NCBI GenBank assembly: GCA_022483015.1
Contig: JAKVOB010000001.1
Location: forward strand, 868,001-932,000
Source of the DNA: Atopobiaceae bacterium
Lineage (GTDB): Bacteria > Actinomycetota > Coriobacteriia > Coriobacteriales > Atopobiaceae
DNA length: 64,000 nt
Direction: 5' to 3'
Part shown: piece after piece, positions 998 through 46,491 of the stretch
Numbering within the stretch: position 1 is the stretch's first letter
How the letters are laid out: each line of letters opens with the position of its first letter
Translations under genes and position numbers: made by a program
Notes under the pieces: model-generated
Told to the model about the DNA's origin: nothing
The model's input: the letters and a program-made list of their open reading frames with translations, nothing else
Databases searched by the model: none

Positions 998-2176
998 ATG
1001 AAGCCAAGAGTCGCCGTGATGTTCGGTGGGAAGAGCGTCGAGCACGAGGTGTCCGTCATCTCGGGCATCCAGGCCTTCCTTGCCATCGATGCCACGAAGT
1101 ATGATGCGATCCCCGTCTACATCACCAAGGGCAACGAGCTCTATATAGGCGACTCGATCGGCAAGATGGAGTCCTACAAGGACATCGACGCCCTCCTCGC
1201 ACGCTCGCAGAGGGTCCTGCTCATGGAGGACGCCGGCCAGGCCCAGCTCGTCTCGTATCCGCCCAAGCGCTTCGGGAAGACCGAGACCACCTGCATAGAC
1301 GTCGTGCTCCCGGTCGTGCATGGCACGAACATGGAGGACGGCGCGTTCCAGGGCTACCTCAAGACCCTCGGCGTCCCCTTTGCGGGCTGTGACGTCATGG
1401 CCTCGGCGCTCGGCATGGACAAGTACCTCTCGAAGACGGTGCTCAAGCAGGCTGGCATCCCGGTGCTCGACGCCGAGCAGTTCGGTGTCGCGGACTATGC
1501 CGACATCGACGGGCTCGTCGCGAAGGTCGAGGGGACGCTCGGCTATCCCGTCATCGTGAAGCCCGTCGACCTCGGCTCGAGCGTCGGGATCAGCGTCGCG
1601 AAGAGCCGTACCGAGCTCCTCTCGGCGGTGGATGACGCGTTCCTGTATGCGACGAGGATCATCGTCGAGCATGCGATCCTGAACCTGCGCGAGATCAACT
1701 GTGCGGTCCTCGGCGACGACGAGGAGGCCGTCGCCTCCGAGTGCGAGGAGCCCCTCCACACCGAGGACATCCTCAGCTACGAGGACAAGTACGTGAGCAA
1801 CGCGAAGGGGAGCGGCTCCAAGGGGATGGCGAGCGTCTCCCGCAAGATCCCTGCCGAGCTGTCAGCCGAGCGGAGGGAAGAGGTCAGGCAGATCGCCGTC
1901 AGGTCGTTCCAGGCGCTCGGGTGCAACGGCGTCGCACGCATCGACTTCCTGGTCGATGCCGACACCGATGCCCTCTACTTCAACGAGATCAACACCATCC
2001 CGGGCTCCTTGGCCTTCTACCTCTGGGAGCCGGTGGGCATTCCCTATCCCGACCTCCTCGACCGCCTGGTGCAGCTCGCGCTCAAGAGGTCTCGCATCGA
2101 GAAGAACCTCACCTTCACCTTTGACACGAACATCCTCGACTCTGCGAGCCTCGGCGGGTCGAAGGGCGCGAAGTAG
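998..2176 (+). CDS. ddl: D-alanine--D-alanine ligase
   Basis: A 392-residue ATP-grasp ligase that makes D-Ala-D-Ala for MurF. All expected motifs are intact: GGKSVEHEVS at 10-19, HGTNMEDG near 107, GMDKYLSKT near 137, the glycine-rich KPVDLGSSVGI near 187, RIDF, and the metal-binding EINTIPGS near 329. The ATG at 998 follows GGGAGAA and begins 10 bp after the murF stop; the longer open frame upstream overlaps murF and is not coding. Length is a little above the usual 310-370 because of a C-terminal extension of about 30 residues. Acceptor choice (D-Ala, D-Ser or D-Lac) cannot be read from sequence alone with certainty; neighbourhood and complete motifs favour the housekeeping enzyme. Confidence 0.92.
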   Translation: MKPRVAVMFGGKSVEHEVSVISGIQAFLAIDATKYDAIPVYITKGNELYIGDSIGKMESYKDIDALLARSQRVLLMEDAGQAQLVSYPPKRFGKTETTCIDVVLPVVHGTNMEDGAFQGYLKTLGVPFAGCDVMASALGMDKYLSKTVLKQAGIPVLDAEQFGVADYADIDGLVAKVEGTLGYPVIVKPVDLGSSVGISVAKSRTELLSAVDDAFLYATRIIVEHAILNLREINCAVLGDDEEAVASECEEPLHTEDILSYEDKYVSNAKGSGSKGMASVSRKIPAELSAERREEVRQIAVRSFQALGCNGVARIDFLVDADTDALYFNEINTIPGSLAFYLWEPVGIPYPDLLDRLVQLALKRSRIEKNLTFTFDTNILDSASLGGSKGAK

Positions 2177-2180
2177 CAGA

Positions 2181-2200
2181 CCCTCCCCGCGAGGGGAGGG
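2181..2200. terminator. Hairpin between convergent ddl and M32 peptidase
   Basis: A perfect 8-bp GC stem (CCCTCCCC / GGGGAGGG) with a GCGA loop lies between the convergent stops of ddl and the carboxypeptidase. No long U tract follows on either strand, so it is a probable bidirectional terminator rather than a textbook one. Confidence 0.6.
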
Positions 2201-2206
2201 CGGCGT

Positions 2207-3751
2207 CTACAGCTGGTAGATTGCCGAGAACTTCTTCGTGAGGTAGCTCGTGAGGTGGCTCACGTCCACCGGGCCGCCGGTCGCGTCGGCCATGATCTGG
2301 TCGGGGTCCTTCGCGCGACCGAACTGCCAGACGTTGTCATGGAGCCAGGTGCGCACGGGCGCGAGGTCGCCGCTCGCGCAGATGGCATCGAAGTCCATGC
2401 CGTCCGCGCGCATGGTGTCGAGGAACTGCGCGCCGTAGGCGCTGCCCAGGGCATACGTGGGGAAGTAACCGATCTGCCCGTTGGCCCAGTGCGAGTCCTG
2501 CAGCGCCCCGTGCCGCGCGTCGGGGACCTCGATGCCCAGGTACCCCCGGTACTTCTCGGCCCAGAGCCCCGGGACGTCGGCTGCCGTCGCCTCACCCGAG
2601 AAGAGCATCTGCTCGATCTCGTAGCGCACCATCACATGCAGGGGATAGGTGAGCTCGTCGGCCTCGGTGCGGATGAGCGAGGGCTCGGCCCGGTTCACGG
2701 CGAGGTAGAGGTCGTGCGGGTCCACGCCGGCCATCTGGTCAGGGAACCGCCGCGCGATCGCGTCCAGGAGCACGGGGGCGAAGGCCTCCGAGCGGCCCAC
2801 GTAGTTCTCGAAGAAGCGGGACTGCGACTCGTGCATGGCCATCGAGGTGCCGCCCTTGAGGCAGGTGTAGTCGAAGGCCGGGTCCACGCCCTGCTCGTAG
2901 AGGGCATGCCCGCCCTCGTGGAGCATCGAGAAGACGTTGCTCGTCACGTCGTCGGGATAGACGTGGCTCGCGATGAAGGCATGCTGGCTCGAGACCGAGT
3001 CGGTGAAGGGGTGCTCGGTGCGCCCGAGCACGATGGCGTCCAGGTCGATGCCCTCGAGTGCCATGAGGTCATGGGCGAGCTCCCACTGGGCCGTCTCGTC
3101 GAACCTGCCGTCCACGCATGCGCGGCTCGGCTGCCAGCCGGCGGCGCCCACGGCGGCCACGAGCGGCACCACGCAGGCACGGACCTCGTCGAAGAACCGG
3201 TCGTAGAAGGCGCGCGAGGTCCCGTGCTCGAACTCGTCCAGCCAGACGTCGTAGGGGTCCGCTGTCGCGTCGCGGTAGCCGGCGATCGTGCGCATGGAGG
3301 CCACGATCCGGTCGAGGTAGGGTTCGAAGCTCGCCCAGTCGCTCGCGAGCTTGGCCTTGTGCCAGCAGGTGTTGGCCTCGCAGAGCAGGCGCGTATGGGC
3401 AGCCTGCACCTCGGGTGGCACGTTGGCCTGGAGCGCCCGGTCGCGTGAGAGGACGCGGAGCTCGGCGGCGTGGGTGGGGTCGAGCTCGTCGGCATGCGCC
3501 GAGAGCTCGTCGAGCAGCCCTGCCGTCTCGTGCGAGCAGAGGCGCTCGTTGGCCTCCTGCTCGAGGACGGCCATGGCCTCGCCGCGCCCGGCCGCACCCT
3601 TGGGCGGGTCGATCGTCTCGCCGTTGAACATCACGTCGATGAGGGCGTAGTTGTGGGCATAGAGGTGCAGCTGCAGGTCATCGAAGCGTGCGAGCAGGTC
3701 CGTGAGGCCCGTGTCGTGGGTGGTGGATGTGGTGCCAGAAGTGGTCGTCAT
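2207..3751 (-). CDS. M32 family metallocarboxypeptidase
   Basis: A 514-residue zinc carboxypeptidase of family M32 (Taq/Pfu carboxypeptidase type), which trims C-terminal residues from peptides in the cytoplasm. The zinc motif HEGGH (HExxH) is at about residue 276, and the family hallmark HESQS, whose Glu is the third ligand, follows at about 304. Length matches the family norm of about 500. I place the start at the ATG at 3751 because the longer open frame runs back through the divergent aminotransferase and has no family similarity there. The first 15 residues are a Thr/Ser-rich tail of unknown use. No signal peptide is visible. It stands alone, convergent with ddl and divergent from the aminotransferase. 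Confidence 0.9.
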   Translation of the reverse strand: MTTTSGTTSTTHDTGLTDLLARFDDLQLHLYAHNYALIDVMFNGETIDPPKGAAGRGEAMAVLEQEANERLCSHETAGLLDELSAHADELDPTHAAELRVLSRDRALQANVPPEVQAAHTRLLCEANTCWHKAKLASDWASFEPYLDRIVASMRTIAGYRDATADPYDVWLDEFEHGTSRAFYDRFFDEVRACVVPLVAAVGAAGWQPSRACVDGRFDETAQWELAHDLMALEGIDLDAIVLGRTEHPFTDSVSSQHAFIASHVYPDDVTSNVFSMLHEGGHALYEQGVDPAFDYTCLKGGTSMAMHESQSRFFENYVGRSEAFAPVLLDAIARRFPDQMAGVDPHDLYLAVNRAEPSLIRTEADELTYPLHVMVRYEIEQMLFSGEATAADVPGLWAEKYRGYLGIEVPDARHGALQDSHWANGQIGYFPTYALGSAYGAQFLDTMRADGMDFDAICASGDLAPVRTWLHDNVWQFGRAKDPDQIMADATGGPVDVSHLTSYLTKKFSAIYQL

Positions 3752-44011: not shown

Positions 44012-44707
44012 ATGCCGAGCTGGAACATACATACCGCGCACGTCGAGCGGCTCCTCCATGACGAGGGGCCGCTCGCGCTGGGCGTGGGTGACGTGAACTG
44101 CTTCCTCTTCGGCAACTACGTCCCTGACATCTACGTGGGCTACATGGTGCCTGACGTCACGCACACGGTCCCCTATCACGCCACGCACCTCGCCACGCCG
44201 CATACCATCCCCATCCCGCGTTCCGACGAGTTCTGGAACACCTACGTGGCGGGTGCGCAGGAGCAGGGCCGTCCTGCGAGCGACGTCTGCCTGGGTGCCT
44301 GGGCGCACCTCGTGTGCGACAACGTCTACAACACCAACGTACGGGCCTTCAACGTGGCCCATGGGGTCCAGGCCGGCGAGCAGACGCGCATCCGCAAGCA
44401 GGGTGACTTCGACCGCTTCGGACGTACCCTGCCCATCACGATGCGCGTCGCCCTGACTGACGAGCTGGTGGCCGAGTGCGAGGCCTTCCCGCAGTATCCC
44501 ATCCTCGAGCCCGACGTGGAGCGCTCGGTCGCGGTGGCCGATGCCATCGTGGACGAGAATGCCGTCCATCCGCGCGGGGAGGGTGCCGACGAGCCCGAAT
44601 ACAGCCTGCTCACCGAGGACTTCTTCTTCGAGACCTTCGAGCGTGCCAACAGGGCGCTGCTGCTGAGGCTGCGCGACTACGGCGCATGGAGGCGCAGCCT
44701 GGGCTAG
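44012..44707 (+). CDS. Zinc-dependent phospholipase C-like protein
   Basis: A 231-residue protein. HTAHVERLLH at the N-terminus, FLFGNYVPDIYVG, DVTHTVPYH, and WAHLVCDNVYN near residue 108 together follow the metal-ligand layout (His, Asp, His, His, Asp) of the zinc-dependent phospholipase C / S1-P1 nuclease fold. It has no signal peptide, unlike secreted phospholipases, so it is probably cytoplasmic. Substrate is unknown. It starts 42 bp after pheT and may be read through from it. Its stop overlaps that of the convergent next gene by 4 bp. Confidence 0.6.
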   Translation: MPSWNIHTAHVERLLHDEGPLALGVGDVNCFLFGNYVPDIYVGYMVPDVTHTVPYHATHLATPHTIPIPRSDEFWNTYVAGAQEQGRPASDVCLGAWAHLVCDNVYNTNVRAFNVAHGVQAGEQTRIRKQGDFDRFGRTLPITMRVALTDELVAECEAFPQYPILEPDVERSVAVADAIVDENAVHPRGEGADEPEYSLLTEDFFFETFERANRALLLRLRDYGAWRRSLG

Positions 44708-45624
44708 CGGGTCTGTTGCGGCGCGGACCCCGCGTCGTGCTGGCCATGGTCGTGGCGCGCGCAGACCGCGGGCACGGTCGTCCGGCCGTCCTCCGAGGCA
44801 TCCGCCGACTCCCAGGCGACGCGCTCCCCGGCCACCGTCTCGTCCCAGATGAGGGGATGGATCTGCTCCTGCGGGATGAGGTTCACGGGTGTCCCGAGCT
44901 CCTGCGCGAGCATGTCATGGAGCCTTTGGGCGTCCTGCGCGGAGCAAGTGCCGTGGTGCTCTACGGCGAGGGTGGTGGCCTGGGGAGCGGCATGGTCCCC
45001 CTCGTCTGGGTCATGGAGCAGCCAGATGCGCCGTGCCGGGAAGGTGCCCCCCCAGCTCCGGCTGATGACGCCAGCAAGCGCTCGGGACACCTGGCCCAGG
45101 CGAGTGGCATCCGCGGCCGTGGGCTTGTGGGTCGGGTCAGGTTGGGGCCATGCGTCCTGATCACGCGCCATGAGCCGTTCCCAGCGCGCCCGCATGCGCA
45201 CGACGGCGATGTCATTCGCGACCAGGCACCTGAGCGTGGGCGACAAGGTGGTCGCTGCGGACCAGGCATCGGCCAGGGCATCATCGTCCAGCGAATGTGC
45301 GGTGCGGTCGTCCGCGAGGCGGGCGAGCGCGCGGACGCGTCGCCAGTCGACGCGTGCCGCAAGCCGTGTGGCGCAGGCGTTGCCCACGCCCCGCGCGTGC
45401 AACCCCACCACGCCGAGGAGCTGGAGCACCGAGGCTCGTGCCAGGGGAGTCGTGCGGAAGGCCTCCCAGGTCAGGCCAGATCTGCCGAGGAAGCGCCTGA
45501 GCTCGTCGGTGTCCTGCCAGAGCATGAAGAGGGCGCGCGCGTCGGCGGTCGTGGTGGCAAGCGAGGGGCAACCACCGTCGGTCGGCGACGCGCTCTCTGG
45601 CTCGTTGTTCTTCTCGTCCGACAT
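44704..45624 (-). CDS. Hypothetical protein resembling a HepT-MNT fusion
   Basis: A 306-residue protein I cannot name with certainty. Residues 30-145 (LFMLWQDTDELRRFL, then VDWRRVRALARLADDRTAH, then LADAWSAATTLSPTL) follow the pattern of HepT/DUF86 helical proteins, though the RX4-6HxY motif is degenerate. Residues 180-285 (RRIWLLHDPDEGDH, TTLAVEHHG, ELGTPVNLIPQEQIHPLIWDE) resemble the second half of a minimal nucleotidyltransferase (MNT); the GSxxxG and DxD motifs are missing. MNT and HepT normally form a two-gene toxin-antitoxin pair, so this looks like an inactive or repurposed fusion. The ATG at 45624 is chosen because upstream frame extension enters other genes. Confidence 0.5.
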   Translation of the reverse strand: MSDEKNNEPESASPTDGGCPSLATTTADARALFMLWQDTDELRRFLGRSGLTWEAFRTTPLARASVLQLLGVVGLHARGVGNACATRLAARVDWRRVRALARLADDRTAHSLDDDALADAWSAATTLSPTLRCLVANDIAVVRMRARWERLMARDQDAWPQPDPTHKPTAADATRLGQVSRALAGVISRSWGGTFPARRIWLLHDPDEGDHAAPQATTLAVEHHGTCSAQDAQRLHDMLAQELGTPVNLIPQEQIHPLIWDETVAGERVAWESADASEDGRTTVPAVCARHDHGQHDAGSAPQQTR

Positions 45625-45738: not shown

Positions 45739-46491
45739 GTGTCGGATTTCGAGAGGTCGGACTCCTCCCTGCTCTACGTGCAGGTCTCCGACTACGTGCG
45801 CGAGAAGATCTACTCCAAGGAGTGGGGCGTGGACGACCGCATCCCCTCCGAGCACGAGCTCATGGCCATGCTGCACCTCTCGCGCGGGACGGTGCAGAAG
45901 GGTATTCGCACCCTCGTGGACGAGGGGCTGCTCGTGCAGCAGCGCGGTCGCGGCACCTTCGTGACGCAGCCGGTCATGGCGCGTCCCTCGTCGAACAGCC
46001 TGCTCTCGTTCGCCGAGTCGATGAGCGTGCAGGGCATACCCTTCGAGACGCACGTGGTCGAGCGTTCCATCGAGACCGCCGGCAAGGCGTGCGCCTGGCA
46101 GCTCGGCATCGAGCGTGGGTCCTCCTACCTCTACCTGGCGCGCGTCCGTGAGGTCTTCGGCGAGCCGGTCATGTGCATCGAGAGCCACCTCAACATCGAG
46201 GCCATCCCCGACCTGGTCGATGCCGACTTCGAGCACGAGGGGCTCTTCTCGGCGGTGGAGCGGTGCAGCGGAAGGTCGATCGGCAGGTCCGAGATGGTCT
46301 ACTCGGCCCGTGCCTGCGGCAAGAAGCGCGGGGCCTGGCTCCGCTGCGACGAGCATGCGCCGGTGCTCGACCTCGACCAGCTGGTCCGCCTCGACGACGG
46401 GACCCCCTTCGAGTGGGGCAGCGTCTGGCTCCCGGCGAACCGCTGTGTCATCAGCTCGGCCACCGAGCGCAGCGAGGGCAGTCGGCGCTAG
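45739..46491 (+). CDS. GntR family regulator with UTRA domain
   Basis: A 250-residue repressor: winged helix at residues 12-75 (LLYVQVSDYVREKIYSKEWG, IPSEHELMAMLHLSRGTV) and a UTRA ligand domain (YLYLARVREVFGEPVMCIES). It starts at GTG 45739, with GAGAGGAG about seven bases upstream; the open frame runs further back but through other genes. It precedes the GH13 gene by 129 bp on the same strand, and UTRA repressors of the TreR kind often control alpha-glucoside genes, so GH13 is its likely target. Confidence 0.85.
   Translation: MSDFERSDSSLLYVQVSDYVREKIYSKEWGVDDRIPSEHELMAMLHLSRGTVQKGIRTLVDEGLLVQQRGRGTFVTQPVMARPSSNSLLSFAESMSVQGIPFETHVVERSIETAGKACAWQLGIERGSSYLYLARVREVFGEPVMCIESHLNIEAIPDLVDADFEHEGLFSAVERCSGRSIGRSEMVYSARACGKKRGAWLRCDEHAPVLDLDQLVRLDDGTPFEWGSVWLPANRCVISSATERSEGSRR

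Follow-up and report, generated by a model that had tools for sequence, protein, structure and literature searches.

A single open reading frame of the window (the whole stretch of 64,000 nucleotides of an Atopobiaceae genome that was analyzed) encodes a protein whose first half is homologous to HepT toxins and whose second half is homologous to MNT antitoxins, with the defining motifs of both lost. This gene, here called X, lies at 44704..45624 (-), with its ATG at 45624 and its stop ending at 44704, and its product has 306 amino acids. We interpret the product as a non-catalytic, putatively binding protein derived from a domesticated toxin-antitoxin (TA) pair, that is, a single-chain double pseudoenzyme, and give this interpretation a probability of roughly 0.6. 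According to PMC7641770, which also presents the RX4HXY and GSX10DXD motifs and their roles, no predicted TA module of prokaryotes is more abundant than the HEPN/MNT pair.

Gene X and the homology of its two halves

Sequence searches found X at full length, its own copy included, in 3/140 genomes of the family and in 3/395 genomes of the order. These are the genome that carries the window (G000, a single contig of 2,276,002 bases), one of the same genus (G020, 47% amino acid identity) and one of another genus of the same family (G019, 37%). In all three X is one open frame and not two separate toxin and antitoxin genes, and the open frames of the G020 and G019 homologues rule out an artefact of overlapping frames. 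The remaining matches were short and weak (six of nine in the family search, at 16-23 bits, and seven of ten in the order search, at 15-19 bits) and were taken as chance, the alignments having been viewed for two of the six and five of the seven. A scan of genome contigs with the single X sequence, which sees only shared short peptide patterns, returned 147 stretches and no relatives; with the X alignment, in an equally pattern-dependent scan, three relatives appeared among 46 stretches, from two loci that had both been found already. Plasmids, phages and viral contigs gave no relative of X, the 29 stretches matched in the viral contigs resting on a few short peptide patterns.

Curated profiles were almost silent on X. 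Pfam gave no family at E<=10, although the HMMER filters discard most matches above about 0.1, and neither half matched PF01934 (HepT) or PF01909/PF18765 (MntA); the whole genome of X had no PF01934 match at E<=0.001 and no PF18765 or PF01909 match at E<=10. The sole NCBIfam match within the X family (E=0.36, in one member) was irrelevant, PHROGs gave a single match (E=0.53) in one of the three members, and a search of the PDB by sequence gave nothing at E<=10. The PADLOC model PDC-S09, which also matches the three true MNTs tested, weakly matched the MNT half, with E values of 0.0024 for the window protein and 1.1e-4 at best among the three members.

In spite of the silence of Pfam, profile-profile comparison matched each half to the partner that the initial annotation had proposed for it. 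The hhalign score of the three-member X family was 42.5 against 17 HepT sequences from relatives, the HepT-like helical domain covering residues 25-136 (45217..45552 (-)), and 41.1 against 14 MNT sequences from relatives, the MNT-like domain covering residues 168-275 (44800..45123 (-)). For each half 200 full column shuffles and 200 block shuffles were run, and none of the 400 reached the real score: the maxima were 20.0 (column) and 20.1 (block) for HepT and 23.8 (column) and 20.6 (block) for MNT, and the reversed sequences scored 13.5 and 10.0, respectively. As decoys we used 48 automatic clusters of flanking ORFs, several of which were frames overlapping X. The best score outside the cluster of X itself (40 ORFs) was 26.1, from a decoy that overlaps X on the opposite strand, and the L022 cluster, which scored 23.3, consisted of badly aligned HepT/MNT ORFs. 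The HepT profile was built, via PF01934, from 17 of the 22 loci L020-L041 (L023, L027, L035, L040 and L041 were omitted), whereas the MNT sequences were picked by an intact-motif pattern, so that their profile holds no degenerate members.

The same homology emerged among targets that had not been preselected. Of 396 phylum genomes searched with a profile built from the three X proteins, 6 matched, the genome of X itself included. The two of the five other matches that were inspected (the rest being L074, L013 and L075) were MNT genes, each directly followed by a HepT gene. The two MNT genes matched PF18765 with E values of 1.4e-16 and 1.6e-14, the adjoining HepT genes matched PF01934 at 9e-32 and 1.7e-29, and both motifs are readable in the printed sequences of these loci. 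Weak matches of the X profile in the expected register also came from HepT loci, to the MNT ORF in six of them and to the HepT ORF in four; with E values of 0.098-6.1, no single one of these matches is significant. Homology to HepT in one half of X and to MNT in the other is detectable.

Predicted structures, of modest confidence, showed the same arrangement. The AlphaFold2 model of X, computed from the three sequences, had a mean pLDDT of 65.4, with 175 of its 306 residues at 70-90 and none higher. Foldseek placed MntA/MNT chains in its top rows (best E 8.6e-3, probability 1.00) and gave no match at E<=0.001. In a second look with VIA-align 2, two HEPN toxin entries led the list, with Z scores of 9.0 and 8.9 over residues 22-152; the first of them, 7ae6_B, aligned 121 residues between 23 and 152 with an rmsd of 5.3, but a Z of 9.0 for a helical bundle falls inside the warning range of the tool, and the fold evidence for the HepT half is weak if taken alone. 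These HEPN entries (7ae6 and 7ae8) head the VIA list only and are absent from the best 50 Foldseek rows. Rows 3 to 14 were all MNT (Z 8.4 to 6.8, residues 168-279), among them 8xeo_B with a Z of 8.4, an rmsd of 3.2 and 96 aligned residues between 171 and 273; the row below them, which is unrelated, had a Z of 6.5, too close to set it apart from the lowest MNT rows. For the G019 homologue (mean pLDDT 59.4) VIA rows 1-12 were MNT without exception, with Z from 8.4 to 6.9 against 5.8 in the following row, and no HEPN row appeared, its HepT half lying mostly under 60. Shuffles, reversal, decoys and fold search together rule out a chance likeness of helical sequence, and what had been proposed for 44704-45624, one chain with a HepT half first and an MNT half second, holds in profile and in model.

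Lost motifs and conserved patches

The second part of that proposal, the degeneration of both motifs, is borne out in all three members, on which all statements about motif loss and conservation rest. Given in the order G000/G020/G019, the alignment shows that in RX4HXY the R has become D/D/Q, the H is H/H/Y and the Y has become L/L/A, and a regular expression for the motif matched none of the three. In the window protein the degenerate region spans residues 105-113 (45286..45312 (-)), with D105 in place of R, H110 kept and L112 in place of Y. Extra residues precede the motif in the whole family: G000 and G020 have four each, G019 a single one. All three members lack GS and DXD in their MNT half, where the position of the third carboxylate is N/D/E; in the window protein a loop at residues 204-218 (44971..45015 (-)) replaces GSX10DXD. 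A loose GSX10DXD-like string, GT...DPD, also present in the window protein, was judged to be chance and out of register because it comes too early in the MNT-like domain. The only motif residue that survives is the HepT His, and as it is kept in two of the three members some residual activity is possible. No homologue of X with intact motifs was found in the family, order or phylum genomes, the genome and viral contigs (where the scans depend on patterns), the plasmids or the phages.

The divergence of X points to a protein that is constrained but changing fast. Between G000 and G020 the proportions of differences at first, second and third codon positions were 0.43, 0.32 and 0.56, and between G000 and G019 they lay closer together (0.46, 0.42 and 0.54). 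The amino acid identity of X between G000 and G020 (46.5%) is below that of the genes on either side, PLC (62.5%) and gntR (84.3%), a difference that also fits relaxed constraint. Invariant residues are crowded in the junction between the domains, residues 136-162 (ANDxxVVRxRxxW...WPQP; 45139..45219 (-)), where 15 of 27 are invariant versus 64 of 225 in the core (P 0.0015), and in residues 30-77 (21 of 48, P 0.008), both ranges having been picked after viewing the three-sequence alignment. For two ranges likewise delimited post hoc, the former catalytic stretch 93-128 and residues 197-250, the counts of invariant residues are 5 of 33 and 9 of 50. A further segment, H256-P-L-x-W-D-E, is invariant throughout the family. 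Such crowding would be consistent with a fixed arrangement of the two domains kept without catalysis.

The C-terminal tail, residues 276-306 (44707..44799 (-)), is mostly of low model confidence and is poorly conserved, with 2 invariant positions among 19 shared columns. Its last 30 residues hold 3, 10 and 3 His in G000, G020 and G019, and this His-bearing tail (44707-44799 (-) in the window, 1438-1530 (-) in locus L002) could bind metal.

Chromosomal locus and gene order among relatives

X converges with a gene at 44012..44707 (+) that matches no Pfam family and whose product we take to be zinc-dependent phospholipase C-like (PLC); the two stop codons overlap by 4 bp in both G000 and G020. 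On its other side, the gene of a GntR/UTRA regulator (45739..46491 (+), assigned by the Pfam GntR and UTRA families) is divergent from X and separated from its start by 114 bp, or by 121 bp in G020. The PLC gene, without Pfam match, is present in 135 of the 140 family genomes, and the gene adjoining it is presumably pheT. Among 30 PLC loci fetched, X occurs in two, those of G000 and G020, in both cases between PLC and gntR, and is absent from 28, all of other genera. Within 1.5 kb on each side, pheT lies upstream in 19 of these 28 and an amylase gene is found in 16, and in nine gntR follows PLC, with 16-102 bases between the aligned ends. The simplest reading is an insertion of X into the interval from PLC to gntR. 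X is next to PLC in G019 too, but the gene on its other side is one that we assume to be aldolase-like, not gntR; pheT is unseen there because the contig ends inside PLC. A promoter and terminator scan of the X locus gave nothing, which says little because the shuffled sequences were also expected to give about none. The chromosomal place held in common, the open frames and the loss of motifs in all three homologues agree with the suggestion of the initial annotation that the protein is a derived one.

The order of the halves in X is the reverse of the one common among its relatives. In 13 of the 14 relatives' loci with a motif-found MNT, the MNT gene lies upstream of HepT, and in one (L041) downstream, two of the positions being obtained by arithmetic. 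HepT genes themselves are frequent in the order, where PF01934 matches 121 of 395 genomes; G000 and G020 have none, and the single match in G019 is partial and does not reach the curated cut-off. Locus L032 of G113 (1486-2493 (-)) has a 336-aa frame in which an intact-motif MNT is followed by HepT, which may represent a fusion, two genes in phase or a frameshift. It was considered as an intact fusion and set aside, having MNT first and an ill-fitting middle, and was taken, without proof, as two genes or a frameshift. In L028 of G206 (1832-2383 (-)) and L036 of G188 (1829-2374 (-); same order) an MNT with an N-terminal RelB domain (PF04221, E 3.8e-12 and 6e-12) stands beside HepT, as a hybrid antitoxin.

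Known systems and the proposed origin of X

With the HepT/MntA type VII pair (PF01934 and PF01909/PF18765) X has in common both folds, profile homology and the presence of the two partners together. However, X is one chain with the HepT half first, without RX4HXY, without GSX10DXD and without a Pfam match. Judged by these defining motifs, which were tested and are absent, X is neither a HepT nor a MntA proper. Kanamycin-nucleotidyltransferase and GlnE-type enzymes have an active NTase. Like X they carry NTase and HEPN domains in one polypeptide, and a domesticated TA origin is ascribed to them in PMC3710099; in the aminoglycoside enzymes of its table, though, the HEPN domain is C-terminal, whereas X has the reverse order and no NTase motif. 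The same source states that former TA systems have been domesticated and that HEPN domains fused to MNT are typically without the RNase residues, the MNT activity having been recruited. Its Table 1 gives HEPN-M (DUF86) as "occasionally fused to MNT". X resembles these domesticated fusions in having both domains in one chain and the HEPN residues lost, and differs from those described there, in which the MNT half is recruited and active, in that the nucleotidyltransferase motif is lost too. MtlR, a repressor of HEPN fold, is described in PMC3710099 as keeping the RNase residues in part of its family (60%), as being without an MNT half and as encoded in mannitol operons; no mannitol operon is present at X. 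HEPN-MNT fusions are already in print, and a HepT-first fusion with both sites lost would be new: among the matches listed in a literature search that covered few subscription journals, there was no published HEPN-MNT fusion dead in both halves.

We propose that a HepT/MntA-type pair became one chain with its HepT half in front, and that the fusion would have lost both chemistries along with the RNase motif, the acceptor tyrosine and the adenylyltransferase motif. The two folds would have been kept, and probably also a fixed contact between them. In a few Atopobiaceae X would then have become established as a normal chromosomal gene, most likely acting by binding a protein or RNA. The fuller version, in which a whole TA module was fused in reverse order, stripped of both sites and kept at a housekeeping locus as a "frozen complex" with a new binding function, we hold to be about evenly balanced between true and false.

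The leading alternative, though an unlikely one, gives X the immunity role also suggested initially: X or one of its halves would bind the toxin or the antitoxin of incoming HepT/MntA modules and block them, as a solitary antitoxin does. MNT and HEPN proteins do bind each other in the systems described in PMC7641770 and PMC11586414, and HepT genes are common around the clade (121/395 order genomes), though not in G000 or G020. Against this, a partner tied into the same chain would be likely to fill its own binding face, and mutation of the MntA motif of S. oneidensis weakened the neutralisation of HepT (PMC7641770); nor does anything point to mobile DNA, as no relative turned up in the viral contigs, plasmids and phages searched and the locus is one shared with housekeeping genes. 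Slightly less likely still is a local regulator acting on the divergent gntR-amylase side or on its RNA, as proposed for MtlR. The divergent gntR, at 114 and 121 bp, is a weak hint in this direction, yet gntR is not beside X in G019, 9 of 28 loci have gntR after PLC but no X, and X matched no DNA-binding domain profile in Pfam or NCBIfam.

We consider it improbable that X is still an enzyme working with shifted residues, such as the retained His, acidic residues or a metal-binding tail. H110 in two of the three members, the invariant segment starting at H256 and the ten His at the end of the G020 protein would suit it, as would the HEPN with a proposed catalytic site unlike RX4H described in PMC11586414; but no invariant residue replaces the R and Y of RX4HXY, or GS and DXD, at the aligned places, and the tail is poorly conserved. 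Lowest in our ranking, and very improbable, is a decaying gene without function. Fast divergence and the loss of both active sites are what decay would produce, but in all three genomes, which belong to two genera, the frame is open from end to end and holds conserved patches, and the second codon positions are the least changed (0.32 versus 0.56 at third positions between G000 and G020).

If the preferred reading of X as a non-catalytic protein derived from a TA pair is true, X would be a case in which the HEPN-MNT interaction alone survived, whereas the cases described in PMC3710099 recruited the transferase activity. Since only the interaction would have been kept, X would allow a direct test of the HEPN-MNT contact without its chemistry. 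As X sits below the Pfam thresholds, annotation would miss it and similar proteins.
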